From an uncultured Pseudomonadota bacterium (GTDB taxonomy: Bacteria > Pseudomonadota > Gammaproteobacteria > Burkholderiales > SG8-39), in assembly GCA_903921325.1 (NCBI GenBank), contig CAIXPL010000028.1:197829-261828 (forward strand): a stretch of 64,000 nucleotides of DNA, written 5' to 3'. The notes under the pieces are model-generated. The model worked only from the letters and a program-made list of their open reading frames with translations. It ran no database searches and was not told the DNA's origin. The translations under genes were made by a program, and so were the position numbers. Of this stretch, positions 25,609 to 41,282 are shown piece by piece (positions within the stretch are counted from its first letter, which is position 1; the number at the start of each line of letters is the position of its first letter).

Positions 25609-27505
25609 ACAAAGTGCAGACAAGGTCACAGGGATACCAGGGCATGGTTTGCGAACGCTGCCAGATCGGCTCTACGGCAACATAGGTCGAGCACTGCGGC
25701 ACGTCATCAAATATCTGGCAGCCGAATATGGGACCAGCATCTCCTGCAGGGTCAAGGCATGTCGTACCCGGGTCGCCGGACAGCGCCAGGAGCAGCGTGA
25801 ACTGCCCGACGCGCAAGGATCCGGCAGGACAAGCAGACCCTTCAAACCAGAAGTTGATTGGCCCGCCCGACGGAAAATTCTTCCGGTCGACAAATCCGAA
25901 ATTCGAGAAAAAGGCGGTCGCAGCAAACGTCTGCATCCCGGCGATATACCCTCCCTGCCACGCGATGCTCTGGTAAGCACGGGCAAATGTGAGGTTGTTC
26001 GCGCCATCGTACGACCACTGCACCGCTGGAATTCGGTCGCCGCCGTGGTACCACTGGTTTTGCAATGGCTGGCCCTGCACCAGCACCCAACTTTGGGCAG
26101 TGAACATGTCCTCGCTGCGAGCACAGTAATCGACACCGGCGCCCCCACCGATGACCAGATCAATATTGCCATCTGGTCGACACGAAGCACTCAAGGCGAT
26201 GGCCCGACCACACCAGCCAAAATATAGGTCGGCAAACAAGAAGCTGGCTGGTTGCACGCCGGTCGTTGTAACTGGTGCCAATTGAACGATGCCCGGAGTC
26301 GCTGCCACGGTTCGCAGTGGTCCTTCAGGATTGTCCAGATCGACCACAAAGTCCGCAATTGCGCTTTGCGATTGATTGGTCAAGTTGGTTCGGGTCACAT
26401 CAAAAGGCACCCTGGGCGACATGTCAGCGCGGCTGAGAATGTCCACCAGATGTGCCGCCCCTCCGATCTCAACCCGGTAGCGCTCAGTGCGGGATTCCAG
26501 CATCACGCTGTAGGTCCCGCTATTTCGATAGCTGCCAGCAGTACAGGTATGTGGCCCCCACTGTCGATAGTCGACGCTGATTACTGCTCGGGCGACCTGT
26601 TGCCACGATCCGTTATCTGTCTGGGTGAGCTTGTATACCGGTTTCAATTCGCGCAAGTAATCAAGTAAGGCGTAGGGCGCACCGGTTTGATCGAGAAGCT
26701 GTTGCACGTCGGGTGCCACCGGACAATGAGCGCCCGCCTGCCTGTTTTCAAGGCAGTAAAGTCCGAAGTCCGGGTCAATCGTTATTCCAGTATTGTTGAC
26801 AGGTTCGTCGTATGCCCCCTGCACATTGATGATTTTCCAATCGTCTAGCGCGACCAGCTGTCGATTCAACTGCCGCCAGAGCAATTTTCCTGCATTGGGA
26901 TAGGCAAATGCAGCAGGCAGTCCAGAGGTCACCGCCAGGGAAACGTAGGACACTTCGATGGGGCCTGTTTGCGAATCGATAATCTCAGCATCGCCGTATT
27001 GAATGCGCGCCCCCGCTTGCAATAGCAAATGCCACGAGAGCGTGACTGGATGCACGACACCCGATACCTGAACTGTCTGCAATAGATTGAATAGAGCGGC
27101 ATCAGCGCCGTTTGAATGCATCCATGCCTCCAACGGTGCCGCGACCACCGCAGCCAGTGTTTGAGCCTGGCGGTTGATCGCTGACAGGATTCCTGATCGA
27201 GTCTGCGACATTCCGAACTCAGTAGCCGGGAGAATCGGTAACAAGGAAGGATCGGCAACCACGTACGAAGTCGTATCGAGGGTGAGCACGCCGGCCTTGA
27301 TGTGACCGCTGCCCACCTGAGCGGCAATGTTGACTCGCATATCGCCAGGGCCGGCAACCGTCTGGGTCACAACGACGACATTTTCAGCCTGCACAGTGCG
27401 CGCCTGCGCAACGACGAACAGCAAGAAAAAAAGTGGACCGAATGTTCGGATTCGCTGCGCAATCCAACAGATCGAAAGACACATCGATTTAGTCCGAATC
27501 CTCAT
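25595..27505 (-). CDS. unrecognised exported cysteine-rich protein
   Basis: No family recognised. The 636-aa product has a long basic signal region and a hydrophobic core (TFGPLFFLLFVVAQARTVQA). The mature part carries about 12 cysteines spread over its length, rich in short Trp/Tyr motifs such as YRQWGPHTC, and ends in a CDLVC pair. ATG 27505 overlaps the pilP stop by 4 bp (ATGA), which fixes the start and argues for co-expression with the pilus. Size, export and even cysteine number suit a disulfide-stabilised surface or pilus-tip protein replacing the PilV adhesin of R64-type pili, but this is inference. Confidence 0.65.
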   Translation of the reverse strand: MRIRTKSMCLSICWIAQRIRTFGPLFFLLFVVAQARTVQAENVVVVTQTVAGPGDMRVNIAAQVGSGHIKAGVLTLDTTSYVVADPSLLPILPATEFGMSQTRSGILSAINRQAQTLAAVVAAPLEAWMHSNGADAALFNLLQTVQVSGVVHPVTLSWHLLLQAGARIQYGDAEIIDSQTGPIEVSYVSLAVTSGLPAAFAYPNAGKLLWRQLNRQLVALDDWKIINVQGAYDEPVNNTGITIDPDFGLYCLENRQAGAHCPVAPDVQQLLDQTGAPYALLDYLRELKPVYKLTQTDNGSWQQVARAVISVDYRQWGPHTCTAGSYRNSGTYSVMLESRTERYRVEIGGAAHLVDILSRADMSPRVPFDVTRTNLTNQSQSAIADFVVDLDNPEGPLRTVAATPGIVQLAPVTTTGVQPASFLFADLYFGWCGRAIALSASCRPDGNIDLVIGGGAGVDYCARSEDMFTAQSWVLVQGQPLQNQWYHGGDRIPAVQWSYDGANNLTFARAYQSIAWQGGYIAGMQTFAATAFFSNFGFVDRKNFPSGGPINFWFEGSACPAGSLRVGQFTLLLALSGDPGTTCLDPAGDAGPIFGCQIFDDVPQCSTYVAVEPIWQRSQTMPWYPCDLVCTLYAGS

Positions 27506-28443
27506 TTGCTGACCGGGCCCGCGGGCCCGATCTCCTGCCCGCGAGGGAGCGCAACGCTGGGGCGTGCCTCGGATGGTGCTGGAGGTAACACCCATTGTGG
27601 GGCCTCACGATTGCCCGATCTTGAGGCATCTGGGTTGCTCAACCGATTGATCTCCAGACCAGGAATCGGCGGGAGAACTGCGACTGGCGCTGTGACTGCC
27701 TGCGCATCCTGGCGAGCGATTGCGACATCCCTGCGCTCGCTTCCGCTGGGAACACGGTAGGTTCGTCCATTGAGGCTGATGTCCAGGCCGTCAATTTTGT
27801 CGACATGAATTGAGCCATGTGCCGACCCCTCAGACATCACCTCAATTTTGGAATTGACTTCGACCAGGGCAAATTGCTTGCCCATCACCGTACTCACCCC
27901 CAGCACGCGCAGAGGTCTATCCGCCTCTGCCTGCGGTAGAGTCACAGGATGCGTGGTCGGCAAGACTGGAGACTCGGTGATCGGCGTGCCCATGGGCGAG
28001 CGCGACCTCGGTGGCACTGGCATTCCCGTTGCATTCCGCGGCATCGCCGAGCGCGCACTGCTTAATGGCGGCGCGATCGCGTTGACGTCCTTTGCCGCGA
28101 GCGCAGGAGCACTCGGACTTCTTAGCCGCTCAAGCTCGGCATGCAAGCGAGCCGCCGCCACTTCCTGCTCAAGCAGGCGGGTTCGTTGCTTTGCCAATTG
28201 AAGAGCAAGTCCAAGGCGATCATATTCAAGACTATTGGTGGAAAATGGGTTACGAGTAGCAACGCTGCCCGGCTCGTGCTCGATGAGCTTGGTGTTATCA
28301 CCTACAGAAAAAGTATCGGCCGGCACACCCTCCTTGAGTCCGACAGTCGGCTGGGCGTTGGCCATCGCGCACAACGTACTAAACGATCCTGCAAGGATAA
28401 CCGCACCCGAGATTCGGGCTATTGGGAGTTGGTAGGTCAACAT
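27502..28443 (-). CDS. pilP: type IV pilus biogenesis protein PilP
   Basis: A 313-aa exported protein. ATG 28443 is supported by AAAGGAG seven bases upstream and gives a signal peptide ending CAMANA. A coiled-coil segment (LALQLAKQRTRLLEQEVAAA) near residue 80 and a C-terminal OB-like PilP module (RVLGVSTVMGKQFALVEV, then IDGLDISLNGRTYRV) match the R64 PilP family. PilP proteins sit in the periplasm and help link the inner-membrane assembly complex with the secretin. The last third is a proline-rich tail not seen in the core family. Its place near the end of the cluster, away from the secretin, is unusual. Confidence 0.75.
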   Translation of the reverse strand: MLTYQLPIARISGAVILAGSFSTLCAMANAQPTVGLKEGVPADTFSVGDNTKLIEHEPGSVATRNPFSTNSLEYDRLGLALQLAKQRTRLLEQEVAAARLHAELERLRSPSAPALAAKDVNAIAPPLSSARSAMPRNATGMPVPPRSRSPMGTPITESPVLPTTHPVTLPQAEADRPLRVLGVSTVMGKQFALVEVNSKIEVMSEGSAHGSIHVDKIDGLDISLNGRTYRVPSGSERRDVAIARQDAQAVTAPVAVLPPIPGLEINRLSNPDASRSGNREAPQWVLPPAPSEARPSVALPRGQEIGPAGPVSK

Positions 28444-28475
28444 GGTTGGTTCTCCTTTGGGACCTCGGTCGCGTA

Positions 28476-29522
28476 TCAACCGTATGCTCCAATGACCGTT
28501 GTGATCAAAGTCTGACCGCTGGGCAGCGGAGCAATGACGCGCGCAGTGAACGGTGGCAAGCTCCGGCGAGGGTCCGTCTGATCCGGGTTGTTGACCGCAT
28601 CCGATGAGTTGTCAATCTGCAATTTCCAGCGGGTCATCAACGTGACATCGTCCGGCGCGAGGCCCAAGCCGGCGAGCAAATTGAGATCGGGAGAGTCTGC
28701 ATTGACTGCGTGCCCCAAGGTGGAGGCGATCATGCCCTGCGATGCCGCGCTCTCAACTGATCCATCCCACATTGGTGATGCCCAATCGCCCAGGCGGTTC
28801 GAATTGGCGAAGTAGTCCACCTCGATCGCACGCGAAACGGAACTCAAATATCGTGTCGAAAAATAGGCCGCATAGGCCGCCGCAACGCGTGCGGATTTCT
28901 TTTGCGCATCGTCATAGGCGGCGCGTACGGCAGGTTGCCCGCTGACAACCTCTGCAATGTCATCGCCCTGCACCGTCAAGATGCCGCTTGACGAATTGAA
29001 GCTCGATTCGAATCGACCATTCATCCCGGCGGAAATTAATGCAATGACCCGATAGTTCAGGCGAACCTCGGGGAGTTCCAGAACGAGGTCATCGGAAATC
29101 ACCACGTTGACCGGGCGATGAAAGCTGTCGTTAGTTAATTGATTGACGCCGCTGGTTGCGCAAGGTTGCAATGCCTGGGTGACATTCGGATTCCATTGGA
29201 ATCCATTCGCATTTGCACTCAGTGCAGTGCCTCTTGTGGAACCGTCCGTCGCTGACAGCTTTCCTCCTTTCAGTAGCACACCATTGAAGGCCACGGAATT
29301 GGGATCCGACGAGAAAGCGGTGGCAATCTCTTGCGTGATACAGCGCTCAATAGCCATTCGCAGTAGCCGCAGATTGAAGTGCGATTCCTGCCTTTGACCG
29401 TATTCCAGAATACTTGCGCCGGTCGATAGAAGACTGACCGACAGCAGCGAAATGACAGCCATCACCACGACGAGTTCGAGTGCGCTGAATCCTCCGGCAG
29501 TTCCCGTTCGTGGTGGCGGCAT
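28476..29522 (-). CDS. minor prepilin with GG/FSALEL cleavage site
   Basis: A 348-aa prepilin-like protein: an 11-residue leader ending GG, then FSALELVVVMAVISLLSVSL with the conserved Glu at mature position 5. The large C-terminal part has only a few cysteines and no known fold by eye. It occupies the place of the PilV minor pilin in R64-type clusters but lacks the long tip domain and there is no shufflon downstream. Start ATG 29522 lies 8 bp after the previous stop. It is probably processed by the same prepilin peptidase as the major pilin, encoded outside the window. Confidence 0.75.
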   Translation of the reverse strand: MPPPRTGTAGGFSALELVVVMAVISLLSVSLLSTGASILEYGQRQESHFNLRLLRMAIERCITQEIATAFSSDPNSVAFNGVLLKGGKLSATDGSTRGTALSANANGFQWNPNVTQALQPCATSGVNQLTNDSFHRPVNVVISDDLVLELPEVRLNYRVIALISAGMNGRFESSFNSSSGILTVQGDDIAEVVSGQPAVRAAYDDAQKKSARVAAAYAAYFSTRYLSSVSRAIEVDYFANSNRLGDWASPMWDGSVESAASQGMIASTLGHAVNADSPDLNLLAGLGLAPDDVTLMTRWKLQIDNSSDAVNNPDQTDPRRSLPPFTARVIAPLPSGQTLITTVIGAYG

Positions 29523-29530
29523 TGCCAGGG

Positions 29531-30373
29531 TCAGAGCTTTTGAATTGCGTAGATTCGGATCGACTGCCCAAACGGGGTCCTGGACCGCAAGACCATCGAA
29601 TAGGGGGGCGACTGAGTTTCACAGTCCTGGTCATTGGAAATCTCGATTGCGCCTCCCCAGGCATCGGTCGCTGGTGCGGGATCCAGGCCGAACGATGCCC
29701 AGGCGATGTCCTTTGCTCGCATGTATCCGTCTGTCGCAGGCAGGGACTGCCCTTGAGCCTGGCAACTCGGGTCGGGGCGGAAGGGATTGCAGGCAATCTC
29801 ACCCAACTCTTGTCGAGCCCTGGATGCCGCCCAATGTTCAATTCGCTCGGCAAATTGCGCAAGGTACGCTGACGTATCCTTGAACGCAGCCTGCTGCAGC
29901 GAAAGGCCCGACACCACTTCAGTAAGTGCACCAGAAAAATCCACGACGTGACCGCTGCGTGGGTCCCAGTGAGGTGAGCCGGCGGATTGACCCGGTATCC
30001 ACAGCAGGAGGATATGTCCCGCCACTTGTCGATCTGAAATCAACGCGCTGGACCAGCTCCGCAAACCAAATTGAGGCGTGATGTTTGCTGCCGTAAGCAG
30101 GCTGCCCATTTCAAGCGGTCCTGAGATTGCCGCCACTTCAGCCAGGTGGCTTCGATACCATAGCGTTACCAACGCAGCGCTTCGCGAAAGATAATCTCGT
30201 TGTGATGAATTCCGATTCGCTGCAATGGCGGCCAACCGCTCCACCATCAGCGAGGCAAGGCACAGACTGAACAGGCTCATTGCCCCGAGCAGCAGAATCG
30301 CGACGGCAAATCCCCGCTGAAGGCGCATTGGCCGCTGGGGGCACCGCAGTCGCCCGGCCAATCCCGATTGCAT
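29531..30373 (-). CDS. GspK/PilX-like minor pseudopilin lacking Glu5
   Basis: A 280-aa protein with an N-terminal RLQRGFAVAILLLGAM segment. Gly21/Phe22 is a plausible prepilin cleavage point, but mature position 5 is Ile rather than Glu. Loss of Glu5 is typical of GspK-type tip pseudopilins, which cap the filament, and the size above 250 aa also fits. C-terminal cysteines (CNPFRPDPSC) could form a disulfide loop. It lies between the major prepilin (16 bp gap) and a second minor prepilin (8 bp gap). The assignment is by position and topology rather than strong sequence match. Confidence 0.6.
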   Translation of the reverse strand: MQSGLAGRLRCPQRPMRLQRGFAVAILLLGAMSLFSLCLASLMVERLAAIAANRNSSQRDYLSRSAALVTLWYRSHLAEVAAISGPLEMGSLLTAANITPQFGLRSWSSALISDRQVAGHILLLWIPGQSAGSPHWDPRSGHVVDFSGALTEVVSGLSLQQAAFKDTSAYLAQFAERIEHWAASRARQELGEIACNPFRPDPSCQAQGQSLPATDGYMRAKDIAWASFGLDPAPATDAWGGAIEISNDQDCETQSPPYSMVLRSRTPFGQSIRIYAIQKL

Positions 30374-30389: not shown

Positions 30390-30944
30390 TTAAGTCAGGT
30401 CGAATTCAAGCGTCAACGTGCCATTGCCGCTGGAACCCTCGGCAGCGACGCAACGTCCGGCAGACTGGCGTGCACCGTTGCACGCAGTTAGGGCTTTGGG
30501 TAACACCTCATTTGGAATATGGGATGCCGTGATCCGCCAGTGCGTTCCGATCGAGTCCTGCGACTGTGTGATGCCCAGAGTCGCGCCGGCTCCAATATTG
30601 GAGATGATGATGTTGCCGCTGCCATCGACTGGCGCGGGCTGAGCGTAACGTTGATGCCATTGCGCGGAGATGTCCAAACCACAAAAACTGTTGTCGGCAT
30701 TCGCTTTTGTAGGATCAAACAACACATCCATTCTGGTTGGATAGCAGGAAAAGTCGTTCTTTGCCATGAGCATGGCATTGGCATAGTCGTTCATTGCACT
30801 TGACAATGCGATGCCTCTTGAATTGCTCTGGTCATAGCTGAAAACTGCGATTCCGCTGATCAGCGCCATCGCTGCCAGTACCGCAATCATTTCTATCGCA
30901 GAAAAGCCGCCTTGGCGGTCAATACGGCTGAGCTGTGACTTCAT
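30390..30944 (-). CDS. pilS: type IVb major prepilin (PilS-like)
   Basis: A 184-aa prepilin. ATG 30944 is preferred over the upstream in-frame ATG at 30968 because GGAG lies six bases before it. The leader MKSQLSRIDRQGG is cut before FSAIEMIAVLAAMALISGIA, which has Glu at position 5 and a 25-residue hydrophobic helix. Mature length is about 171 residues with four cysteines (FSCYP, FCGLD, TACNG, GRCVA), as in type IVb pilins whose C-terminal loop is closed by a disulfide. It follows the platform-protein gene, the same order as pilR-pilS in R64. Confidence 0.85.
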   Translation of the reverse strand: MKSQLSRIDRQGGFSAIEMIAVLAAMALISGIAVFSYDQSNSRGIALSSAMNDYANAMLMAKNDFSCYPTRMDVLFDPTKANADNSFCGLDISAQWHQRYAQPAPVDGSGNIIISNIGAGATLGITQSQDSIGTHWRITASHIPNEVLPKALTACNGARQSAGRCVAAEGSSGNGTLTLEFDLT

Positions 30945-30979
30945 CTGTTCTCCAGGAGTTTGGTTCATAGGTCGAAGAT

Positions 30980-32179
30980 CTAAAGATGAGCAAAGGCAGC
31001 TAGCAGCTGGGGCAACACTGCGACGCCGGCCGTTGCGACAACCATGCAGGCAATAACCAGGTACGACAGCACAGTCACGGTGTGTTCAATTTGATCGCAA
31101 TGCTGCGACACCTCTGAGTGCAAGCGACCAAGCACCCGCTCTACGCCCAGCTTGTAGTTTTGCGCTGATTCGGCCGCTGCCAATTCCGTTGCAACCGATG
31201 CTGGCCACCCTACCCGTCGCGCCACCACGGCGAGCGATGCCGTTCCCGAGCGGAGCATATTGGCCATTGCTTCGAGCCGCTCGCGATGCTCGGCGAGGCT
31301 GGCGGCACGGGCAAGCGTTGTAAAGATTTCAACAGGCCGCATGCCAATCTCATACATCAGCAAAAACGCTGACCATGTTGCTATCAGTTCAAGTTTGATG
31401 CGCAGCTTCGCAAGCGGCGGCAATACGCGGGTGAAACGGGCCGAATCCAGATTGCGCACGATGAGCACAGCCACGATCGGCAGCGCGAACCAACCGCAGC
31501 TGAACAACCGCGGAAACTCCGAGACAGCCACAGCGAACCGATAGTACTCAGCCGCCAGCGAAGGCACCTGGATGCCAAGACTCGACGAGGTTCCAAAGAA
31601 TTTCGCCAGTCTTGGTGCGATGAATAGAGTCACGCCCCACATGACGATCCACATGAAGAGAAACACCAGGGTCGGGTACCAAATGAGTCCGGTGACCCGC
31701 GCTTTCAGTTTGATCTGAACGTCGATTTGCTCCGCGAGCGCCTGAAAGACTCGTGCCTCTTGCCCGGTGTCATGCACCGCTCGGATCGCCTGGACGTGGT
31801 TCATCGGGAATCCGGCAGCAAGCATCGCGTCAGCGATCGGCAAGCCGGCCAGTACGGCTGTGCGCAGACTCGACAACGCAACCGAGGAACGTGGTCGATC
31901 GATAAATTCCTCTGCATCATTCAGACCCTGCGGAAGCGAAAGACCAGCACGCAAGCGGTCTGACAGAACTCGGTACAAGCGACTCAGTTCCGCTGGCGCT
32001 AGCGCTTCGCGATATGCCAAAGCAGCGATCGACCGACCCCAATTCAATCGGACTTCTGCGTCAAGTACGCCCAGTCCGTCGTACACCTGCCTGTGTGCCT
32101 CCTGCAAGGACGCGCTCACCACCGTGCCATTGAGCGGTCCTTTCGGGCCATGAATGACGTAGTCGAACACGTATTGCAT
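30980..32179 (-). CDS. pilR: type IV pilus inner-membrane platform protein (PilR/GspF-like)
   Basis: A 399-aa GspF/PilC-superfamily protein starting MQYVFDYVIHG at ATG 32179, 2 bp after the ATPase stop. It has two GspF repeats, each with a cytoplasmic helical part, and three main hydrophobic segments (TGLIWYPTLVFLFMWIVMWG near residue 170, a second near 220, and VLSYLVIACMVVATAGVAVL near the C-terminus). It anchors the assembly ATPase and passes pilin subunits into the filament. Adjacent ATPase and pilin genes support the role. Confidence 0.85.
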   Translation of the reverse strand: MQYVFDYVIHGPKGPLNGTVVSASLQEAHRQVYDGLGVLDAEVRLNWGRSIAALAYREALAPAELSRLYRVLSDRLRAGLSLPQGLNDAEEFIDRPRSSVALSSLRTAVLAGLPIADAMLAAGFPMNHVQAIRAVHDTGQEARVFQALAEQIDVQIKLKARVTGLIWYPTLVFLFMWIVMWGVTLFIAPRLAKFFGTSSSLGIQVPSLAAEYYRFAVAVSEFPRLFSCGWFALPIVAVLIVRNLDSARFTRVLPPLAKLRIKLELIATWSAFLLMYEIGMRPVEIFTTLARAASLAEHRERLEAMANMLRSGTASLAVVARRVGWPASVATELAAAESAQNYKLGVERVLGRLHSEVSQHCDQIEHTVTVLSYLVIACMVVATAGVAVLPQLLAAFAHL

Positions 32180-32181
32180 TG

Positions 32182-34179
32182 TTAGGCCTCCAGGTCGATG
32201 TGGGCGCACAGCTCATCAATCGAAGTCAGTCCTTCAGCGACCAACGCCAGTGCGTTGTCGCGCATTGAATTGCCCTCCATTGCCTTGCGCAGCGCTGAAA
32301 GGGGTGCCGCCGTTTCAAGTTGATCGCGGAGCTTCTTTCCGCAGTGAAGCAATTCATAGATCATCCGACGTCCTCTGTAGCCGGTGTGCCCGCAACTTCC
32401 GCACCCGTTGTCGGCCGCCCGAAATGCAATTGGATCGCGTTCCCTGGGCATTGACCTCTGGCCCAAGGGGGCAAGCAATTGGTAGGTGCTCTGCCGCTCA
32501 TCGGGCACTTTGCAGCGAACGCAGAGTTTGCGAACAAGTCGTTGGGCAAGAACGCCCAGCAGGATCGATGCCGCCTTTTCACCTGGCACCGCCAGGTCTT
32601 CAAGCCGTCTGATGGCCTCTGCCGCACCATTGGTGTGAAGTGTCGAGAGAACCAAATGGCCGGTGTTGGCCGCCCTGAACAGCTCACGAGCCGTATTCTC
32701 GTCACGAACCTCGCCAAACAGAATCTTGTCCGGCGCATTGCGCAACAGGCCCTTCAGCGCCAAGGCCCATTGGTCACCCTCATCCTTATTCAGACCCGGA
32801 CTCAATGGAAACTGTTGCCACAGTCCGTGCGTGTATTCAACTGGTGATTCAACGGTTTGAATGCTCTCGCACACAGGGTCAACCGATTGCAGCAACGCGT
32901 ACAGTGTGGTCGTCTTGCCCGATCCTGTAGGCCCGCAGATCAGAAGTACCCCGCTTCTCGAGCGCATGTATGCGAGCAGCAGGTGCAATGTCCGAGTATC
33001 AAACCCGAGTTGATTCAATTCGACGGCAGTTGACTGACGGTCATTGATCCGAATGGTGACCGTTTTCCCCTGAACTGCGTTGCCTATCTCTACCCGGAAC
33101 ACGTAACGCTCAACGATGTCTGCATAGCGATCTCGGATTCGCACTGCGTGTTCGTTTCTGCTGGTGTTGAGGTCAAGGGAACACTCTGTGAAGCCGCACA
33201 GCAGCTTCTCGTCTGCCACACCGCTCAACAGGGAATTTCGCATGACACCGATCATCTGATCGAGCAGATCCGTCGGAACGCTGCGCAGGAGTGCCCAAAT
33301 GCCATCGGTCTTCAGCTTGATCATGCCGATCCGATGCGAGCGATAAAGGCAAAGGTCACTCGCTCCGGTATAGCACGCGTGTCTGAGCAGAGCCATGAAC
33401 ATGTCCTGATATAGCCCGCTCTGAGTCAAATCTTCACGAAGCCGCAGCGCAAGGAAATGCCGTTCCATCAGATCCGTGAGCGCGGCCGCAGTTCGCGCGA
33501 AGTGTCGTCGATAGAGCACCTGGCAAGTCGCACTCGATGCGACGTGGAAGTGACACTCATAGTCGCGGAATTGACTGGTCGCCTCTGCAATCGATCGAAT
33601 ATCGGATATGACAATCGAGATCCTGACTCGCGGATGAGCGCGAACCAATGCAATCGGTACAAAGCCGCGAAATTCTTCCAGTCGAATCTCGGAATCGAGC
33701 AAAGACTCGATCGGAACGTCATCAATTTCGCTCCACGGAAGGAAGTCCAGGCCGTGCTCAATCGCGATCACCTTGGCAACCTGCTCTTGCGATAACAATC
33801 CCCAATCTCGCATGACCTCTGATAGCGGTTCATGAAACTGCTTTTGGCGCTCGAGGGCGATCTGGATGTGATGATTTGGCATCCCCATGCGTTGAAGAAT
33901 TTCGCGAGATGTCATGAAACCTGAAAAGAGCCGTTGAACCGCCTGCGCTAGATCTTCAGGCTTCAGCGCCGTCTGATCGATCAGAACACGGCCCAGCAAT
34001 TGACCGGATCTCGCCTGGCGTGCCAATGCGTCTGCAAGCTGTGTCTGCGTGATGCTTCCAGAGTGCACAAGCAACTCCCCGAGGCGCATTCGTCCGGGTG
34101 TTGGCAGTGCGGCTGCCAACTCGTCGGTGACATCGCAATTTCTTTCCCGATGCAGTGGTTCTGATATCAATTGGGTCAT
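32182..34179 (-). CDS. pilQ: type IV pilus assembly ATPase (PilQ/GspE-like)
   Basis: A 665-aa ATPase. Residues 1-200 form MshEN-type domains (LGELLVHSGSITQTQLADAL; VMRDWGLLSQEQVAKVIA). The C-terminal motor has Walker A GPTGSGKTTT near 415, an Asp/Glu box (TVESPVEYT) near 445, Walker B-like KILFGEVRD near 485 and a His box (STLHTNGA). A zinc-binding cysteine set, CVRCK near 550 and CGSCGHTGYRGR near 588, is typical of GspE/PilB assembly ATPases and absent from PilT-type retraction motors. It is longer than R64 PilQ (about 500 aa) because of the N-terminal domains. ATG overlaps the previous stop by 4 bp. No retraction ATPase is in the cluster. Confidence 0.9.
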   Translation of the reverse strand: MTQLISEPLHRERNCDVTDELAAALPTPGRMRLGELLVHSGSITQTQLADALARQARSGQLLGRVLIDQTALKPEDLAQAVQRLFSGFMTSREILQRMGMPNHHIQIALERQKQFHEPLSEVMRDWGLLSQEQVAKVIAIEHGLDFLPWSEIDDVPIESLLDSEIRLEEFRGFVPIALVRAHPRVRISIVISDIRSIAEATSQFRDYECHFHVASSATCQVLYRRHFARTAAALTDLMERHFLALRLREDLTQSGLYQDMFMALLRHACYTGASDLCLYRSHRIGMIKLKTDGIWALLRSVPTDLLDQMIGVMRNSLLSGVADEKLLCGFTECSLDLNTSRNEHAVRIRDRYADIVERYVFRVEIGNAVQGKTVTIRINDRQSTAVELNQLGFDTRTLHLLLAYMRSRSGVLLICGPTGSGKTTTLYALLQSVDPVCESIQTVESPVEYTHGLWQQFPLSPGLNKDEGDQWALALKGLLRNAPDKILFGEVRDENTARELFRAANTGHLVLSTLHTNGAAEAIRRLEDLAVPGEKAASILLGVLAQRLVRKLCVRCKVPDERQSTYQLLAPLGQRSMPRERDPIAFRAADNGCGSCGHTGYRGRRMIYELLHCGKKLRDQLETAAPLSALRKAMEGNSMRDNALALVAEGLTSIDELCAHIDLEA

Positions 34180-34724
34180 CCCAGAATCACGAGGTCGGCA
34201 TCAAAGGTGTCGGCAAATACGTCGATGCCGGCAATCACCGCGCCCAGTTCGCGCAGGCACTCAAGGAAAGCAGTCAGACCCTCAATAGACTCATGCCGAC
34301 CGCGCAAGCGCAGGCGAACGCGCTGCACCTGGGGTGCCGCGGCAAGGTGCTCGATCAACTCGGAGATTCTTCGAGACTTTCCCAAAGCTGGTTTTGCGGC
34401 GGGACTCAGCTGCGTAATGCTGACCAGGTAGGCAGAGGACCGTTGCTTGAGCATTTTATTCAGGCGATGCAATCTCGCTGCCATCGGGATTGCGTGGTTG
34501 CGGGCGCGGGTATCGACGAACTGATCCATTGAGCGGTTGGTCTTTCCAGCCGAGGAAAGCGCCGTGGTCAGTGCCGCGAGCTTCCCGCGCCTCTCGGTAA
34601 GCGTATGGCTCAGTTCCTCCAGGCGCATTCTCTGTGCCTCGAGCGTTGTGTGTCGCGGTTCGATGATGGCGACGCTAACGCACGAGATAATCGAGCAAGT
34701 GATCGTTAGGCGTCTGGAATTCAT
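34176..34724 (-). CDS. PilO/GspM-like inner-membrane protein
   Basis: A 182-aa protein from ATG 34724 with a single N-terminal membrane segment (LTITCSIISCVSVAI). A coiled coil follows (LEAQRMRLEELSHTLTER) and then a small alpha/beta domain (VRLRLRGRHESIEGLTAFLECL) of the ferredoxin-like kind found in PilO and GspM. It would form part of the periplasmic alignment complex between the inner-membrane platform and the secretin. It overlaps the upstream gene by 50 bp and the ATPase gene by 4 bp. The sequence match is weak and the call rests mainly on topology and position. Confidence 0.65.
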   Translation of the reverse strand: MNSRRLTITCSIISCVSVAIIEPRHTTLEAQRMRLEELSHTLTERRGKLAALTTALSSAGKTNRSMDQFVDTRARNHAIPMAARLHRLNKMLKQRSSAYLVSITQLSPAAKPALGKSRRISELIEHLAAAPQVQRVRLRLRGRHESIEGLTAFLECLRELGAVIAGIDVFADTFDADLVILG

Positions 34725-35844
34725 AGTCGAAATCCATTTCACGGTCGGCGCCCTCAAATGTCATAACAGGTGATTCGCCCATAGGCTGCAATCGCACGAC
34801 CGAATCGGTTGGGCCAGAAGGCAGTTTGGGCAGCTGCGGTTGATCGGTTGCCGCGCTATCGGTAACCGCCACACTCACGCGCGCCGGGCGTTCCAGTGCG
34901 TGAATCGTGGCGCGCCCCCCAGGCGGCGTGACCGATGAGGCCGATCGCACGAGTGCCGTGACGTCAAGCGACCCTAACTCTTCCAATAGGGGTAGACCGT
35001 TTTCAATCGTTGCAGCGAAGCTGGATCGGATCAGCTCTTCCTCTGCCGCAAGCCTTGCCTGCGCGGTCTTGAGATGTTCCGCTTGAGTCGAAAGCGAGAC
35101 GACGTCGACTGCCAGAGCCATGCAGGCGGCCAGACTGCCCCCAGCTGCAGCCAGCCACCAGCGACTGGTGGGCACTCCCAGAAACATGTCCTCGTTTGGA
35201 TAAGCTGGTGGTGCCGGAGTGGCTGTGACGGCGTCATACAGGGCGACGCAGTCAAGCAGCGCTAGGCGATGCGCCTGCTCATTCTGCAGTCCGTGTCTCG
35301 CACAGTATTCATTGATGATTTGTTGCGATTGATACTGGGCGTTTTCGGTGTACTCGAGGTCACGCATCTGTCCATACCCGTCCATCGCCCACAGCGCCAG
35401 AATCTGGCACTCGCCTGGTGCGCCTCCGAGGTTCACACCGACGACCGCGGGACGGGTCGAGTGGACTGCTGCTGGAACAAGCGATTCGACGACAAGTCCC
35501 AGCGGAGTCATGCTGCAACCGCCTGACAGCGAGTCAGCGGTTCGCGCGTAGATCGCCCCTGTCACCAATGAGTAGTTGATGATCCGAACGCGCTTGCCCA
35601 AGCGCAGCCGCGCAAGGCGCGTGGCTTTGGTCGTTGATACTGGCCGTTTGGATACCAGCCTTAAATCGGTCGTGGTCAGCGTGAGCGCTCGCGCAGGTGC
35701 AGGTTCAGGACCAGTGCCTGACCCCGCGAACCGGTCTAGACCGGTTCGCGTGATTCGCCACCAGGTGCCTGAGTGCAAGCGTGACTCCAAATAGAGCCAA
35801 ACCTCTGCGGTTCGAGGATTATCGGAATCCCTTACTCGCTTCAC
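34675..35844 (-). CDS. PilO2/GspL-like bitopic pilus assembly protein
   Basis: A 389-aa protein. The GTG at 35844 overlaps the secretin stop (GTGA), which fixes the start; the longer frame upstream is antisense noise inside the secretin gene. Residues 1-230 look cytoplasmic and beta-rich, followed by one membrane span (WWLAAAGGSLAACMALAVDVV), a coiled coil (LKTAQARLAAEEELIRSS) and a periplasmic tail. This layout is that of R64 PilO (the PilO2 family) and of GspL, which recruit the assembly ATPase. The 50-bp overlap with the next gene suggests tight coupling. Confidence 0.65.
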   Translation of the reverse strand: MKRVRDSDNPRTAEVWLYLESRLHSGTWWRITRTGLDRFAGSGTGPEPAPARALTLTTTDLRLVSKRPVSTTKATRLARLRLGKRVRIINYSLVTGAIYARTADSLSGGCSMTPLGLVVESLVPAAVHSTRPAVVGVNLGGAPGECQILALWAMDGYGQMRDLEYTENAQYQSQQIINEYCARHGLQNEQAHRLALLDCVALYDAVTATPAPPAYPNEDMFLGVPTSRWWLAAAGGSLAACMALAVDVVSLSTQAEHLKTAQARLAAEEELIRSSFAATIENGLPLLEELGSLDVTALVRSASSVTPPGGRATIHALERPARVSVAVTDSAATDQPQLPKLPSGPTDSVVRLQPMGESPVMTFEGADREMDFDYEFQTPNDHLLDYLVR

Positions 35845-37421
35845 AGTGATTCTCCGATCAGCGGGTCGATGCTGGGCGCTGGCGCGATCCTCGCGTGGAG
35901 CATCAATACGAGTTCGCGCGTGAGCTTTTGTTCTTCGGATCCTGCAATCCACTGACCGATGGTGTAATCGAAAAGACCGGGAATGCCACTGGCACTTTTA
36001 TATTGATTGGTAAAGCGACTGCCGCCGATGATGTAAGTCTTACCGGCTTCCAGCAATACCTTGAGATGGCTCGAACTTGTCGGTATGTCGTATCCAACCA
36101 GGATCGTGGACGGACCGGCAGCAAATGACTGCTGGTTGGTGGCTGTGGTCAGCATCGGGATAATGGTCATTTCGGCGTGCGAGTCGTCGATGATGTTGGG
36201 GCGAAACGCCAGTGAGACACCGTCCATCACATATGAAAGTGTCCCTGCGGTCGTTGCCAGTGAACCCGTTGAACTGATCGAGGTGGCAACTGAGCCCAGG
36301 TAGGGCTTCTCGGTTGCGTTTAGAACAATGCCGGCTTGGTGATTAAGCATCCAGAGTTGCGGCTCAGCGACGACTTTGGTCCGGGTACGGGACTGGAGCG
36401 CCTTGATGACGCTGGTGATAGTCGCGCTGGTGACCTGACCACTCGCGCTTGGATTTTGGACAACCGAGGAGCCCGTTACCCCGAAGGTGAGGGTGCGCCC
36501 GTTCGGACTCAGGATTCGAGTCCAGTCGATGCCATGAGAAAGTTCGTCATCGAGCGAGATCTCTACCAGGGCGACTTTGAGTTCGACCTGTCGAGCAGCG
36601 TCTTGAGTAACTGTCTCCATGAATGCGGTCACCCGCTGGAGGGCCGTGCCGTCAGCACGCACGGTGATCATGCCGGTCTCGGGGATGATGGTGACTTGTG
36701 CTTGACGTCCGGCCAATTCGCGCAGTGCGGTGAGAATGGATGAGAGCGCACCGGTGGTTCTGCCCTGTACCTTCATTCCTGTTGAATTGGCGCCATGACT
36801 TGCGCCTGCAATGGCTGACAGTGGTGTCGTACCTGACCCCAGTGGTGCGCCCGAAGGGCCTGCAGCGCCAATACCCGAAGCATTTGCCCCAGGCAGACTG
36901 GTTCCCGACAAGCCTGCTGCGGTATTGGAGCTGACGAAATAGTCAGTGTTTACGTTCTCTAATAGATGAACCGGTATCCGATAGGTATAGGTGGCCTCTT
37001 TCGCGACATAGATCGCTCGCCGTTGCGGATTGATAATCGCTGCGAGTCCTGCTGATGCGGCGATTTCCCGCACGGTGCGATCGAAGGTCAGGTCGCTGAG
37101 ATGGACCGTGCGTTTGTCGTCCGGAATTCCCGCGACTGCGATAACGGTGTAGCCGTTCGGCTCAGCGACTGACCGAAGAAGCGCAAGCAACGGAGTATCT
37201 GTCGCCTGAACGGAAACGGAGTCAGCGGTGGCGGCATAATCGATGCGATCCGCGCCGACGTACGGTTGCGAGACACGCCTCAGATCGTGCGCAATGCTCA
37301 GTGCTTCAGCGATCTGTTTCGCCTCAGCTTGGGTCTGGCGATGAACTTCCGAAGCATTGTCCGGAAGGGTGCAAGCGCTTGCCATTGCGGTGGCAAGAGC
37401 AAAGTGCGCCGGAATTTTCAT
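35841..37421 (-). CDS. pilN: type IVb pilus secretin (PilN-like)
   Basis: A 526-aa outer-membrane secretin with a short signal and a Cys at residue 17 (AMASAC) suggesting a lipoprotein, as in R64 PilN. N-domains cover about 90-260 (VHLSDLTFDRTVREIAASAG; ALSSILTALRELAGRQAQVT). The beta-barrel secretin domain follows (VELKVALVEISLDDELSHGIDW near 290, TRTKVVAEPQLWMLNHQAG near 345, YIIGGSRFTNQYKSASGIPG near 470). A Gly/Ser/Ala-rich linker lies at about 170-215. It forms the channel through which the pilus leaves the cell. ATG overlaps the TcpQ-domain gene by 4 bp. Confidence 0.9.
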   Translation of the reverse strand: MKIPAHFALATAMASACTLPDNASEVHRQTQAEAKQIAEALSIAHDLRRVSQPYVGADRIDYAATADSVSVQATDTPLLALLRSVAEPNGYTVIAVAGIPDDKRTVHLSDLTFDRTVREIAASAGLAAIINPQRRAIYVAKEATYTYRIPVHLLENVNTDYFVSSNTAAGLSGTSLPGANASGIGAAGPSGAPLGSGTTPLSAIAGASHGANSTGMKVQGRTTGALSSILTALRELAGRQAQVTIIPETGMITVRADGTALQRVTAFMETVTQDAARQVELKVALVEISLDDELSHGIDWTRILSPNGRTLTFGVTGSSVVQNPSASGQVTSATITSVIKALQSRTRTKVVAEPQLWMLNHQAGIVLNATEKPYLGSVATSISSTGSLATTAGTLSYVMDGVSLAFRPNIIDDSHAEMTIIPMLTTATNQQSFAAGPSTILVGYDIPTSSSHLKVLLEAGKTYIIGGSRFTNQYKSASGIPGLFDYTIGQWIAGSEEQKLTRELVLMLHARIAPAPSIDPLIGESL

Positions 37422-38032
37422 CGTGTCAGCGCTCCGTCGGAGAGACGGACCTCCAAAACCTGGTTGCCTTCCCAGTAGGTTGCCGATAGATCGTAGGAGT
37501 CCAGAGCCTTCCTTACGATGGATTCGACCGAATCTCCGTCAATTCGATAGCCCTGCTGGGCGCGGAAGTCCGCCCTTGCATTCCACTGGAGGGCGATCCG
37601 ATGACGATTCAGGAAAGACTTCAATGCCATTGATAAACGTTGGCCCTTGGCCACCTCGAGGGTGTAGGCAACCTCTTGCCCATTGGGACCTGATGACAAT
37701 TGCGCAAGGTTGGTTGGCTCATTCTGCGAAATTGCGCGCGAACGGACGGAAGCATCGGTGTGATTCATTGTTTCTGCCGTGTGACCAGCCTCGACACCTG
37801 CGTGCTCTACGCTGGCCGCTGCTAGAAGTAATTCACCGTGTGCAATTTCAGGCGGTGGGGTTTGCAGCTCGCCTCGGATCGCTTCAAACCTCCAAACGGG
37901 AATCGGACCACCGCGCACGATGATTCCCGCGGTCAGACGGGACGCGATCGTTCCGTCTGACAATCGGTAAAACGCATACGCGCTGGGTAAATGAGCGCAG
38001 ACCACGATCAATGCGATGACGACAAGGCGCAT
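37418..38032 (-). CDS. TcpQ-domain pilus protein (PilL C-terminal-like)
   Basis: A 204-aa exported protein from ATG 38032 (MRLVVIALIVVCAHLPSAYA signal). The C-terminal 80 residues are TcpQ-like: VAKGQRLSMALKSFLNRHRIALQW, then YRIDGDSVESIVRKALDSYD. TcpQ of the toxin-coregulated pilus and the end of R64 PilL stabilise the secretin, and here the gene lies directly before it. A longer frame beginning with TTG at 38176 exists but overlaps the transglycosylase gene and lacks a signal at its start, so the internal ATG is preferred. Confidence 0.72.
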   Translation of the reverse strand: MRLVVIALIVVCAHLPSAYAFYRLSDGTIASRLTAGIIVRGGPIPVWRFEAIRGELQTPPPEIAHGELLLAAASVEHAGVEAGHTAETMNHTDASVRSRAISQNEPTNLAQLSSGPNGQEVAYTLEVAKGQRLSMALKSFLNRHRIALQWNARADFRAQQGYRIDGDSVESIVRKALDSYDLSATYWEGNQVLEVRLSDGALTR

Positions 38033-38117
38033 AGTCAAGCGGGCTTCCGGTCGCCGCCAAAGGGCGAACGCGTGTTGGTGGCGCGGGCTGTTTGCCGCAC
38101 GCCTCCTGTCGGTTTCA

Positions 38118-38642
38118 TCATCGCCGCGCGTCGCGCTCAATCTGCGCGATCGCTGCGTGAAAGCGCTCGTCGACAAACCGGAAATTTCGAGTCAGACGAG
38201 CGTAATACTGGCGAGCTGCGGGCGTGCCCGCGCTCGCTTCGGCGTGAGACCAGTAGGCTGCATAGGCTTGCCATGTCCAGCCAAAGGTGCGTAGGTTGTC
38301 GCGAATGACTTCGGCTGCGATATGCGCACCGTGGTAGGGGTGATGTACCCGGTCGAGGCCTGTGCGCCCGGCCTGATGGTACGTGTTGATTTGAAACAGG
38401 CCGCGGTCGAGTCCTCGCGCACCTGGTCGAACCGCATAGAGGTCAATCGTGCTGTTTTCATTGAGCATGTAGGCCGCCAACAATCGAGGGTCTGTTTCTG
38501 TATCTTTCGCCGCCGCGCAGAGGCTTTGAGCGATCCATTTGCTCGTGGCTTGGCCAAGATTCGGATTTTTTTCGGTTACGACCAGAAGCAAGGCAATGGT
38601 GCAAGTGGCCAGAGAGAACATGAGAGCGAGGGCATCAGGCAT
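38118..38642 (-). CDS. lytic transglycosylase-like protein (PilT of R64 type)
   Basis: A 174-aa protein with an N-terminal hydrophobic segment (LALMFSLATCTIALLLVV) and an SLT-type lysozyme fold. The catalytic Glu is E62 in AAYMLNENSTIDLYAV, followed by GLDRGLFQINTYH and YAAYWSHAEA. Such small transglycosylases open peptidoglycan for pili and conjugation machines; R64 PilT and VirB1 are examples. The start overlaps the sigma/ParB-like gene by 8 bp, so the two are expressed together. Confidence 0.8.
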   Translation of the reverse strand: MPDALALMFSLATCTIALLLVVTEKNPNLGQATSKWIAQSLCAAAKDTETDPRLLAAYMLNENSTIDLYAVRPGARGLDRGLFQINTYHQAGRTGLDRVHHPYHGAHIAAEVIRDNLRTFGWTWQAYAAYWSHAEASAGTPAARQYYARLTRNFRFVDERFHAAIAQIERDARR

Positions 38643-39849
38643 TCATTTTCAAGGCCTGCCCAATGCGCTCGCGAGATCGCTCCAGTTGAACGCGCACACT
38701 TGAGAGCAGAACCCCCTCGCGCGCAGCGCGCAAGAGGGCTTGCGCCTCAGTCGAACCGATGGTGGTGATCACGGTCGTACCCAGTTCCCTTAAAACGAGA
38801 AACTGCGCACTGGCAGGCATTTCGTCAAAGAATGCGGCGACCAGAGGCGACAGGGACCCCTCGTCATAGAGTTTCTGAAAAGCGGGAATCAATTGTGGAG
38901 CTCTGGTGTGGTCGGCTCTCATCGCCCCACACATGCTTTGAAATGCCAGATCGTCGATATCCGATGAATCCGAAGCAACAACATGGAGCAGTGTTGCGAC
39001 GGATTCGAGTCCGAGAATCCTGGCCGCCACGCAAACCTCGGCGCATTGCAGAACACGGCTGTATTGATCGACGTAAACGATCGCTGGCTGTACGCCCAAA
39101 CAGACGAACTGGCGCAAGGCTTTCAGCACGTCCGTGCCGGACCGATCCATTCGATTGGGCAGGCGCAGACTACGCAGCGCGCGACGCGTAATTGGGCTGG
39201 ATGGTAACCACTGCTCCTCAGGCAATGCGCGAAAGATCCGATCGATCCGGCCTGCATCGGGTGCGGAAAACAAGTGATAAATGTCTTCCATTTGGGAATT
39301 GACGCGCCGCTTTGTCACTCCCATTCGGGCGGCGATTTTCTCCGTTGACTCCTGGGCAAGAATTCCGTCCAGCACGCTGCGATACGAGGGATGGTTGTAC
39401 AGAGGGTGGGCGCGGACTGCATCTGGAAAGGCAATCTCCGAACAACAGCGGATGAACAGCATCCTGATCTGCTCATCGACTGGTGGGACTGCGCTTGAGT
39501 AGTTGTGATCATCCGGTGGGAAGTCGACCAGTACGTGGGCATCTGCATCCCCCTGCGGCGAGGCGGATCGTCGTACCTCATAGTCCTCGAAGCTCTCGGT
39601 GGGATGCATGCCGATCGAATCGCTCAATTCGTTCACTAGGGAGCGGTACAAGTATTTGAAATAGGCCTCGCGGTCCTGGGTGTGGGCGCCCTCGCTTAGC
39701 TTGCCGACCCGCCGCCAGACAACGTAGAGGGTTTGGCGGACGTCGGCGACCTCTACCCGATATCGATCAGCTAACCGCGGCAAGTGCCCTTTCATGCGGG
39801 CTATTGATTCTTCGTAGGTTGCGTGAGCATTTTGAGCAGGCGGTTTCAT
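38635..39849 (-). CDS. sigma-70-like / ParB-like chimeric regulator
   Basis: A 404-aa protein with two recognisable halves. Residues 30-78 resemble sigma-70 region 2 (DVRQTLYVVWRRVGKL, then FKYLYRSLVNELSD). Residues 155-194 resemble the region 4 helix-turn-helix (TEKIAARMGVTKRRVNSQM). Residues 240-292 resemble the ParB N-terminal fold (VLKALRQFVCLGVQPAIVYV, AARILGLESVATLLHV), but the GERR nucleotide-binding motif is missing. Residues 320-355 resemble the ParB DNA-binding helices. It is preceded by a 120-bp AT-rich gap with nested palindromes that could be its target. It probably controls the pilus genes it heads. Both domain calls are by eye. Confidence 0.6.
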   Translation of the reverse strand: MKPPAQNAHATYEESIARMKGHLPRLADRYRVEVADVRQTLYVVWRRVGKLSEGAHTQDREAYFKYLYRSLVNELSDSIGMHPTESFEDYEVRRSASPQGDADAHVLVDFPPDDHNYSSAVPPVDEQIRMLFIRCCSEIAFPDAVRAHPLYNHPSYRSVLDGILAQESTEKIAARMGVTKRRVNSQMEDIYHLFSAPDAGRIDRIFRALPEEQWLPSSPITRRALRSLRLPNRMDRSGTDVLKALRQFVCLGVQPAIVYVDQYSRVLQCAEVCVAARILGLESVATLLHVVASDSSDIDDLAFQSMCGAMRADHTRAPQLIPAFQKLYDEGSLSPLVAAFFDEMPASAQFLVLRELGTTVITTIGSTEAQALLRAAREGVLLSSVRVQLERSRERIGQALKMNA

Positions 39850-39885
39850 GAGTGGGAACCTAGTCGTATGTTTAGTTGATAGACT

Positions 39886-39929
39886 ATTACGCTAGTATTT
39901 CAGATGGTAATACTATATTATAGTGTAAT
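39886..39929. promoter_or_regulatory. nested AT-rich palindromes before the sigma/ParB gene
   Basis: TAGTATT (39893-39899) and AATACTA (39909-39915) form a perfect 7-bp inverted repeat with 9-bp spacing. Outer arms ATTAC (39886-39890) and GTAAT (39925-39929) also pair. ACTATA-T-TATAGT (39912-39924) is a perfect 13-bp palindrome. The minus strand reads TATAAT (39922 to 39917), a consensus -10 for the downstream gene, though no good -35 was found. The 50 bases 39881-39930 are 28% GC by count. Likely operator/promoter or parS-like site. Confidence 0.55.
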
Positions 39930-39969
39930 GATTGTCGAGTGCTGTTAACATGCTGAAACTAATGGACAT

Positions 39970-40989
39970 TCAGCAGTTGCTAACCGAATCGAATGGAACG
40001 CAGCAGGTAGTCGGCCGCCAATAAATCCAGGCGTAAGCGCCATCGGAGCTGCGCAACATATCGGTGGGTAACGCTCCCGGTGCACCCGCCTGAACGCAGG
40101 AACTCACCGCCGGATAGGCCTGCTGGAACTTGCCGGCAACGTCCACCGGAAAGGGAAAGCTGCCCAAGTCGGTGCGTGCTACAGACATCCCGCGATAGGC
40201 TGCAATCGCCGAACTGCGAACCTCATCGGACCCCAGTGAGCGCATTTGCCGCGGATAGAGTGGTCCCCAAGCGCCAATGCAAGGGTCACCTTCCAAAGAT
40301 TGGACGAGCGTGCCGCCGACATCAACAGACGCGGTGATCGCGCATTTTGCAACGCCCCTTTCAAAGAGATTTTGAAGCGTCAAGTCGCGGCAACCCGTCC
40401 GCCAGTTGAGAAAGTCCAGTTCGCTTAGATACGCAGGGGTCATCGTTACACCGAGCGTCTCAAACGATCCCTCCACCGCGGCACCGAGTGCAGCCGATAG
40501 CATCTCCGTGCCACACATGTTGATTGCGGCCATCGGACTTGGTTGCGCAGGAACACGAGCACTCGAGAGTTTGCAACTCTGGCAGCCGTTGTGAAGCTGC
40601 ACCAGACGCTCGGGCATCGAAAAGACATGAACCTCGTAAGTTGAATCCTTGCCGTTGGCGTGCGTCTGGCGCGTCTGAGCCAAAGCCGCCGCTCCGCTCG
40701 AACCCATTGCCATCAGATCGAAGCCTGCGAGCATTGACTCACCCGGGAATCGGGTGGTTTCGATAAAGCTCGCAGGCACGAACTGGCTCACCCGATACGC
40801 GCACGGTACGGCACCGCAATAGCAGACACCGGTGACCACGCGCGCCGAACAGGTGGGGGACGAGCTGATCCGGGAGACCACATCGGCAGGGGTCTGCGCC
40901 GGCAGCGCCCAAAGGTCGGCGGGTAAAGCGAAAAGGATCATCGCCCACGCACCAAACAGGATCGTCACGGATCGATCTGCATTTCCCAC
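39970..40989 (-). CDS. TraU-like conjugation protein (TIGR03756/PFL_4710-type)
   Basis: A 339-aa exported protein starting with GTG 40989 (GAGG nine bases before; an in-frame stop lies just upstream). It matches TraU-family proteins of integrative conjugative elements in pattern: VTGVCYCGAVPCAYRVSQFVP near residue 50, AYLSELDFLNWRTG near 190, WGPLYPRQMRSLGSDEVRSS near 245 and a C-terminal WRPTTCC. TraU acts in the periplasm in DNA-transfer channel or mating-pair functions. No other F-type transfer genes (TraW, TrbC, TraN, TraH) are here, so it is an orphan heading a pilus operon, separated from it by 120 bp. Confidence 0.68.
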   Translation of the reverse strand: MGNADRSVTILFGAWAMILFALPADLWALPAQTPADVVSRISSSPTCSARVVTGVCYCGAVPCAYRVSQFVPASFIETTRFPGESMLAGFDLMAMGSSGAAALAQTRQTHANGKDSTYEVHVFSMPERLVQLHNGCQSCKLSSARVPAQPSPMAAINMCGTEMLSAALGAAVEGSFETLGVTMTPAYLSELDFLNWRTGCRDLTLQNLFERGVAKCAITASVDVGGTLVQSLEGDPCIGAWGPLYPRQMRSLGSDEVRSSAIAAYRGMSVARTDLGSFPFPVDVAGKFQQAYPAVSSCVQAGAPGALPTDMLRSSDGAYAWIYWRPTTCCVPFDSVSNC

Positions 40990-41282
40990 GCTTTCTTACC
41001 TCACCCTCCTGGGAGCACTCTGAAACAGGTGCCGCATCGACTAAACCCCGGGGTGGGAAGCCGATCGAGGGGATAGCCGGTGTCGCCTTCTTCAGCTGAG
41101 ATGTAATCGACAGCGTCAATGGAAATGCCACAAACTGGAAACGTGCAGATTGGTCGGCAAATCGCCCAAGCGTCCGTTTCAGGGGCTATTTAATGTGCGG
41201 GCCGACCACCGCTGGCATTCCCCTACTGGAATCTTTGTATGATCTGAATTGCGCAGCACCCAGACAGACCGAGGAGAACGCG
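40990..41282. other. divergent intergenic region, pilus island boundary
   Basis: This is the longest non-coding gap in the window (293 bp). It contains the ribosome-binding sequence of the TraU-like gene (minus strand), a perfect palindrome ACCCCGGGGT at 41045-41054, an AT-rich TATTTAAT patch near 41186, and GAGGAG before the cupin start. It marks the right edge of the low-GC island. I see no tRNA, att-like direct repeat or integrase remnant in it. Confidence 0.5.

Follow-up and report, generated by a model that had tools for sequence, protein, structure and literature searches.

A putative ECF-type sigma factor with a degenerate ParB-like extension, encoded in a traU–thin-pilus operon

Described ParB-fold and ECF sigma factor proteins

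Proteins of the ParB fold are increasingly seen as general switches outside chromosome segregation. A bacterial fusion of the ParB-CTPase fold with Sigma70, which binds ATP, was described by Kaljevic et al. in 2025 (PMC12704722); ParB-fold/Sigma70 fusions are thus already known as a kind, and this is the one fusion report that we recognised in the literature pairing ParB with sigma factors. The protein considered here, encoded at positions 38635–39849 of the analysed stretch of DNA (the window, 64,000 nucleotides), likewise joins a Sigma70 domain and a putative ParB-like domain in one bacterial chain, with a caveat concerning its ParB half. A sequence-only reading of the window had known of no standard family with this order of domains. 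The published fusion narrows that statement, although the available text of PMC12704722 gives neither the domain order nor the number of sigma regions, and the two proteins can be compared by description only. According to the same text, nucleotide binding needs the arginine of the GxxR motif, whereas all four homologues of the protein described here lack this arginine.

Another related group is formed by the ECF sigma factors with extensions, in which, as in the fusion protein, a sigma2–linker–sigma4 core is followed by a fused domain (PMC8999054). At least 26 ECF groups have members with regulatory N- or C-terminal extensions, and the SnoaL-type extension of ECF41 inhibits through contact with a linker motif (PMC8999054). 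Given that the fusion protein has the same sigma2–sigma4–extension layout, its extension might mask the sigma half in a similar way until a ligand, a partner (e.g., ParA) or a pilus-assembly signal frees it. However, the extensions named in the available text of the review are SnoaL-like, TPR, cysteine-rich and anti-sigma-derived; none is ParB-like, and the word ParB occurs there 0 times. As no ligand site or partner was identified for the fusion protein either, we regard this kind of self-inhibition as improbable.

By functional analogy, the nearest precedent is BisD of ICEclc, which has a ParB domain and regulates transcription in connection with conjugation genes (PMC7423338). It is described as a CTP-using clamp sliding on ICE DNA (PMC13098234). 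BisD differs from the fusion protein in that the available text describes no sigma half and in that BisD works with BisC (PMC7423338). As judged from a set of ParB proteins and the Noc model, the N-terminal ParB-like stretch of the fusion protein and the helices that in ParB follow the HTH are arranged as in Noc, ParB and KorB, but the fusion protein lacks the GERR and QPR motifs and the HTH, and a sigma half stands in front. Within the literature searched, a complete ECF core followed by a degenerate extension that lacks the HTH is new, and so is the regulon motif.

The fusion gene and its two halves

The gene is read on the minus strand, from 39849 to 38635, as a single intact ORF of 404 aa; the plus-strand translation of the same interval contains 10 stops. 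The ORF and the length given in the sequence-only reading hold, and its reading direction has to be corrected to the minus strand. The peptides that it quoted are present in the protein, DVRQTLYVVW as residues 36–45, EKIAARMGVTKRRVNSQM as residues 170–187 and CAEV as residues 269–272.

Full-length identity to the three homologues is 58, 59 and 30% in the alignment, whereas in the search the two homologues from the same genus (genomes G001 and G002) showed 60 and 61% identity. The third homologue, also full-length, with 30% identity, belongs to genome G051 of the same order but of another family. The four homologues from the two families share 76 invariant columns, and in all four the match is free of stops. 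Conservation over the entire length and the tight operon indicate that the fusion gene is real. A decaying relic, in which neither half works and which persists only through its embedding in the operon, would agree with the rarity of the family and with the loss of the ParB nucleotide boxes; given the invariant columns and the absence of stops, we consider such decay very improbable.

Comparison of the sigma half with a set of ECF proteins by hhalign gave an alignment of residues 7–187 over 150 columns (E 1.3e-8). Its score was 58.8, against a mean of 13.2 and a maximum of 26.4 for shuffled columns, and none of the 200 shuffles scored as high. The ECF profile set consisted of eight proteins; three of the 11 sigma loci yielded no ORF passing selection. 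The region 2-like part (residues ~7–95; 39565–39831, minus strand) includes DVRQTLYVVW (39715–39744) and FKYLYRSL (39637–39660), and its DVxQ and LYR core is aligned with the ECF set. The region 4-like HTH (residues ~140–195; 39265–39432, minus strand), with EKIAARMGVTKRRVNSQM at 39289–39342, is covered by the same alignment and also gave weak Pfam matches. Neither the ParB set (E 0.1) nor a pilus control profile (E 0.85) matched the sigma half in hhalign.

Searches with curated models agree with this in part. Sigma70_r4 matches three of the four homologues at E ≤ 10, with the best E of 0.0038. The window protein alone has no Pfam match above the cut-off, its Sigma70_r4 matches being sub-threshold only (E 0.23 and 2.6), and no NCBIfam match at E ≤ 10. 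TIGR02937 (sigma70-ECF) matches three of the four homologues, the window protein not among them. The lowest E is 5.6e-5, over residues 11–180 of the protein from G051, and the others are 0.003, confined to region 4, and 0.11; the best of these matches, 22.8 bits, misses the curated ECF family cut-off of 42.9. The N-terminal columns of the family profile also pick up genes in four other genomes (of 369 class genomes); these are RpoE/ECF-like by eye at loci L010, L012 and L013, and the one at L011 was grouped with them in the ECF set. Region 2 is the part of a sigma factor that binds core polymerase. In the fusion protein it is as well conserved in the alignment as region 4, and we infer that the protein binds core RNA polymerase.

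In the other half, residues 232–382 are colinear with ParB residues 72–254 in an hhalign comparison with 31 ParB proteins, one per locus from 31 loci. With the G051 homologue leading the profile, the E-value was 3.6e-4, and the score of 33.8 was reached by 0 of 200 shuffles, the highest of which scored 21.6. With the window protein leading, the result was borderline: E was 0.01, and the score of 24.4 compares with a shuffle maximum of 24.5 (1 of 200). Weak matches were also given by PF02195 to one of the four homologues (E 0.0035) and by the Noc model TIGR04285 to the G051 homologue (E 0.0011). These profiles point weakly to the C-terminal half being a colinear relative of ParB.

The degenerate stretch corresponding to the N-terminal CTPase fold of ParB occupies residues ~205–295 (38965–39237, minus strand). 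At the position of GERR (Box II, the GxxR P motif), the four homologues have CAEV (the window protein, 39034–39045), GDDI, AEEI and GDYA, so that the arginine is absent from all of them. QPR (Box I), which we take to be the C motif of ParB, is replaced by LPN in the window protein (within 39142–39162) and by LPA in the G051 homologue. The central ParB HTH is skipped in both alignments, and the helices after it are kept; the alignment and the model place these C-terminal helices at 38638–38898 on the minus strand, with LIPAFQKLYDEGSLSPL at 38842–38892. Thus, the profile alignments agree with the proposed order of sigma regions 2 and 4, a degenerate ParB-like stretch and ParB-like helices, and the absence of GERR is borne out by CAEV standing opposite it. 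In the survey, alanine in place of the GxxR arginine abolished nucleotide binding (PMC12704722). Given this result, the residues lost from Box I and Box II and the skipped HTH, a canonical CTP clamp is predicted to be absent and canonical CTP clamping by the ParB-like half is unlikely. The same losses make the DNA spreading or clustering suggested by the sequence-only reading unlikely by the canonical route.

These losses also bear on a mechanism resembling that of BisD, in which the ParB-like half would still dimerise or clamp on the DNA of the locus and activate at a distance, the sigma half serving for DNA binding only and not as a sigma factor. BisD activates ICE promoters together with BisC (PMC7423338), the ParB-like regulator described here likewise accompanies conjugation-type genes, and the region 4 HTH of the sigma half could replace the skipped ParB HTH. 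However, the GERR arginine is lost in all four homologues, the conservation of region 2 equals that of region 4, and no BisC-like (DUF2857) match was found among the neighbours scanned with Pfam; we therefore consider such a mechanism unlikely.

Two AlphaFold models of the protein had a mean pLDDT of 54 and 51, with the ParB stretch almost wholly below 50, that is, of low confidence. For neither of these poor models did Foldseek return a PDB match at E ≤ 0.001. Among the 50 matches listed for the first, low-confidence model, a chain of the M. tuberculosis initiation complex ranked first, ECF sigma structures occupied ranks 2–5, and Spo0J (1vz0) appeared at ranks 6, 12, 29, 34 and 49, which carries little weight. 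For the second model, ECF structures were again high and Spo0J was absent among the 50 listed; this, too, should not be weighted heavily. Searching PDB sequences with a profile returned nothing relevant. The ParB assignment is accordingly a prediction from sequence profiles.

The traU–pilus operon and the distribution of the family

The operon consists of 15 assigned genes, all on the minus strand, running from 40989 down to 24094. No gap exceeds 16 bp except the 120 bp ahead of the fusion gene, which itself overlaps the following gene by 8 bp; several larger overlaps elsewhere are probably due to ORF starts taken too early. The first gene (39970–40989) belongs to the TraU family (PF06834, E 1.2e-17; TIGR03756, E 2.7e-14, below the cut-off). 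Behind the fusion gene lie a lytic transglycosylase-like (SLT) gene (38118–38642), which has a homologue in G051 and was not found in the DNA examined from G001 and G002, a PilL/TcpQ-like gene (37418–38176; PF10671, below the cut-off) and a secretin gene (35841–37421; PF00263). A PilO-like gene (34675–35952) has no Pfam match and was named by its position; homologues occur in G001, G002 and G051. It is followed by a GspM-like (T2SSM) gene (34176–34757; PF04612, below the cut-off), a secretion/pilus ATPase (T2SSE) gene (32182–34179; PF00437), a gene for a T2SSF/PilR-like membrane protein (30980–32209; PF00482) and a prepilin-like gene (30390–30968; N_methyl motif, below the cut-off). The rest of the operon (24094–30373) contains five genes, at 29531–30373, 28476–29522, 27502–28479, 25595–27595 and 24094–25629; homologues of all five are found in order in G001 and G002, and of four in G051.

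The order traU, fusion gene, thin-type-IV-pilus operon is the same in all three genomes of the genus and in G051 from the other family. Blastp found counterparts of 14 of the 15 operon genes in G001 and likewise in G002 (the SLT gene was not found in either), and of 14 in G051 (the gene at 27502–28479 was not found); in all three their order is kept. Directly upstream of the fusion gene in G051 is the end of a traU-like gene, with 61% identity over 97 residues. At the other side, a 327-aa protein without a Pfam match (L004:428–1411, minus strand) overlaps the end of the G051 fusion gene.

The gap upstream of the fusion gene (39850–39969, minus strand) is AT-rich (35% GC) and contains no terminator match. 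A sigma70-like consensus match, TCGACA-17-TAGTAT, is located at 39938–39910; it is the single match in the 601 bp scanned, where 0.4 would be expected by chance. Possibly, the fusion gene may have its own basal sigma70 promoter inside the operon. The sequence TAGTATTACCATCTGAAATACTA in the same gap was considered as an operator palindrome and found unconvincing, as about 0.1 such occurrences (a rough estimate) are expected in such an AT-rich stretch.

The genome from which the window comes (G000; 4.5 Mb, 38 contigs) has one copy of the fusion gene, and both other genomes of the genus carry it. The family is rare: it was found in four of 61 genomes, its own included, in two of 399 genomes of the order (its own and G051), and in one of 150 relatives of G051, namely G051 itself. 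Among 369 class genomes and 398 phylum genomes there was no full-length match besides its own. In the order, class and phylum searches, four or five first-look candidates were scored per genome; the samples overlap, and distant members may be missed. Four other matches in the class and one in the phylum were all partial; by eye, four of these five loci hold what look like ECF genes of the RpoE type (three loci) and a response regulator of the LuxR type (one locus). The plasmid and phage collections contained no relative of the window protein, the plasmid collection none of the G051 homologue, and the viral contigs none.

PilO-like homologues were detected in 19 of the 399 order genomes, the window's genome and G051 included. 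Of the other 17 genomes, 10 supplied 11 PilO loci, one of them (L086) a contig of 3.9 kb; no ORF in these loci matched the fusion profile at E ≤ 1. These related pilus operons occur without the fusion gene, so a pilus module does not by itself call for it. By eye, the neighbours of four loci (L080, L081, L085 and L087) resemble VirB8, VirB9 or VirB10.

One more ORF of similar length was considered as a paralogue and rejected, as its C-terminal half is different. It encodes a 405-aa ECF-like sigma factor with a long C-terminal extension (L029:772–1989, minus strand) and adjoins a gene that is YCII-like by eye. We assume its C-terminal half to be of the TPR type and the protein to be ECF42-like.

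The second T4SS locus and the shared promoter-like motif

In the genome of the window, a TraC-like ATPase gene (TIGR02746, E 2.5e-53, below the cut-off) and a TraB-like gene lie about 15 kb from gidA/gidB–parA–parB. The gid and par genes were named by eye, parB by PF02195, and the other T4SS genes of this locus by eye. The chromosomal parB has a PF19044 gene at a distance of 15.1 kb in G000, 15.4 kb in G001 and 15.6 kb in G002, and by eye the three PF19044 proteins look alike. Given the like distance and the similarity of the proteins, the T4SS locus near parB seems to be a fixed part of the chromosome in this genus. The TraC/TraB-type T4SS cluster is divergent (L101:296–9728 and L100:18324–19994).

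A motif, CTTCCC-N6/7-GTTTAG-N4/5-TGAG, precedes three transcription units: traU, the pilin-like/T4SS operon and a third gene. The copy upstream of traU, CTTCCCA-N7-GTTTAG-N4-TGCG, is at 41033–41060 of the window (minus strand). The third copy lies before a gene of about 180 codons, which in G000 and G002 is part of the T4SS locus; in G001 this place would be beyond the contig end. This conserved ~180-aa protein (MTLRATVYLDP...; L100:17582–18136 and L103:3435–4232) is perhaps, by eye, a ribbon-helix-helix accessory protein.

The scans for the motif covered 0.85 Mb in G002, 0.54 Mb in G000 and 0.05 Mb in G001. With models built from two species and applied to the third, the three sites were the top three in the 850-kb scan of G002 (27.6, 27.6 and 25.8; next 16.9), ranked 1, 2 and 6 in 539 kb of G000, and two sites ranked 1 and 2 in 53 kb of G001. 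Models built from one transcription unit ranked the remaining two among the best three places of G002, where the sites scored 19.6–28.1 and the best non-site 16.0–16.6. In G000 the sites fell within ranks 1–5 with these models, but the best non-sites (17.9–19.8) exceeded the weakest true sites (16.1–17.4); the best of these non-sites, at window position 36306, is inside the secretin gene. The pilus genes and the T4SS elsewhere in the genome appear to share one promoter signal, and further copies may exist beyond the scanned DNA.

The spacing of CTTCCC 6–7 nt from GTTTAG is unusual for a −35/−10 layout, so the motif may instead be bound by an activator or recognised by a different factor. Based on the location of the fusion gene, which is also the sole regulator gene recognised in the loci read, we infer that the fusion protein reads the motif. 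With a probability of about one half, the fusion protein is a dedicated transcription regulator of a chromosomal T4SS/thin-pilus regulon, an ECF-type sigma factor with a ParB-derived extension. Its sigma2/sigma4 half would direct RNA polymerase to the motif before traU, the pilin-like/T4SS operon and the third gene, and its ParB-like half, with no canonical CTP binding and no HTH of its own, would presumably serve for built-in control or for dimerisation. More speculatively, and in our estimation rather doubtful, the family could be a new ECF class with its own promoter class (CTTCCC/GTTTAG/TGAG), differing from the promoters known so far; a retired ParB clamp would have become a sigma-control domain, and the sigma factor would coordinate a dispersed, chromosomally fixed conjugation-type T4SS with a thin pilus. 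A natural fusion with a lost nucleotide site, a complete ECF core and defined candidate target promoters would permit a direct test of the role of the fold without CTP; it would also let the switching-on of chromosome-fixed conjugation-type machines be tested.

In all three species, the pilin-like operon has a leader with a long hairpin that begins at TGAG (L101:9672–9781, L102:11216–11325 and L103:17453–17562, minus strand), which suggests a transcription start nearby. The minimum free energies are −52.9, −56.4 and −51.7 kcal/mol, with z of −3.3, −2.7 and −2.7; 1, 3 and 3 of 200 shuffles, respectively, were as stable. The stem sequences differ between the species, and the presence of a strong hairpin in all three suggests a conserved leader structure.

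The GGGACTGTCCCC stretch beside the motif was considered as a dispersed repeat and discarded, as exact strings were found only at the G002 traU site in the DNA searched. The 114-kb contig C38 of the window's genome has identical 141 bases at both ends (L163:1–141 and the end of L098) and carries ParA/ParB-like genes and a VirB4-like ATPase gene; it is probably a circular plasmid.
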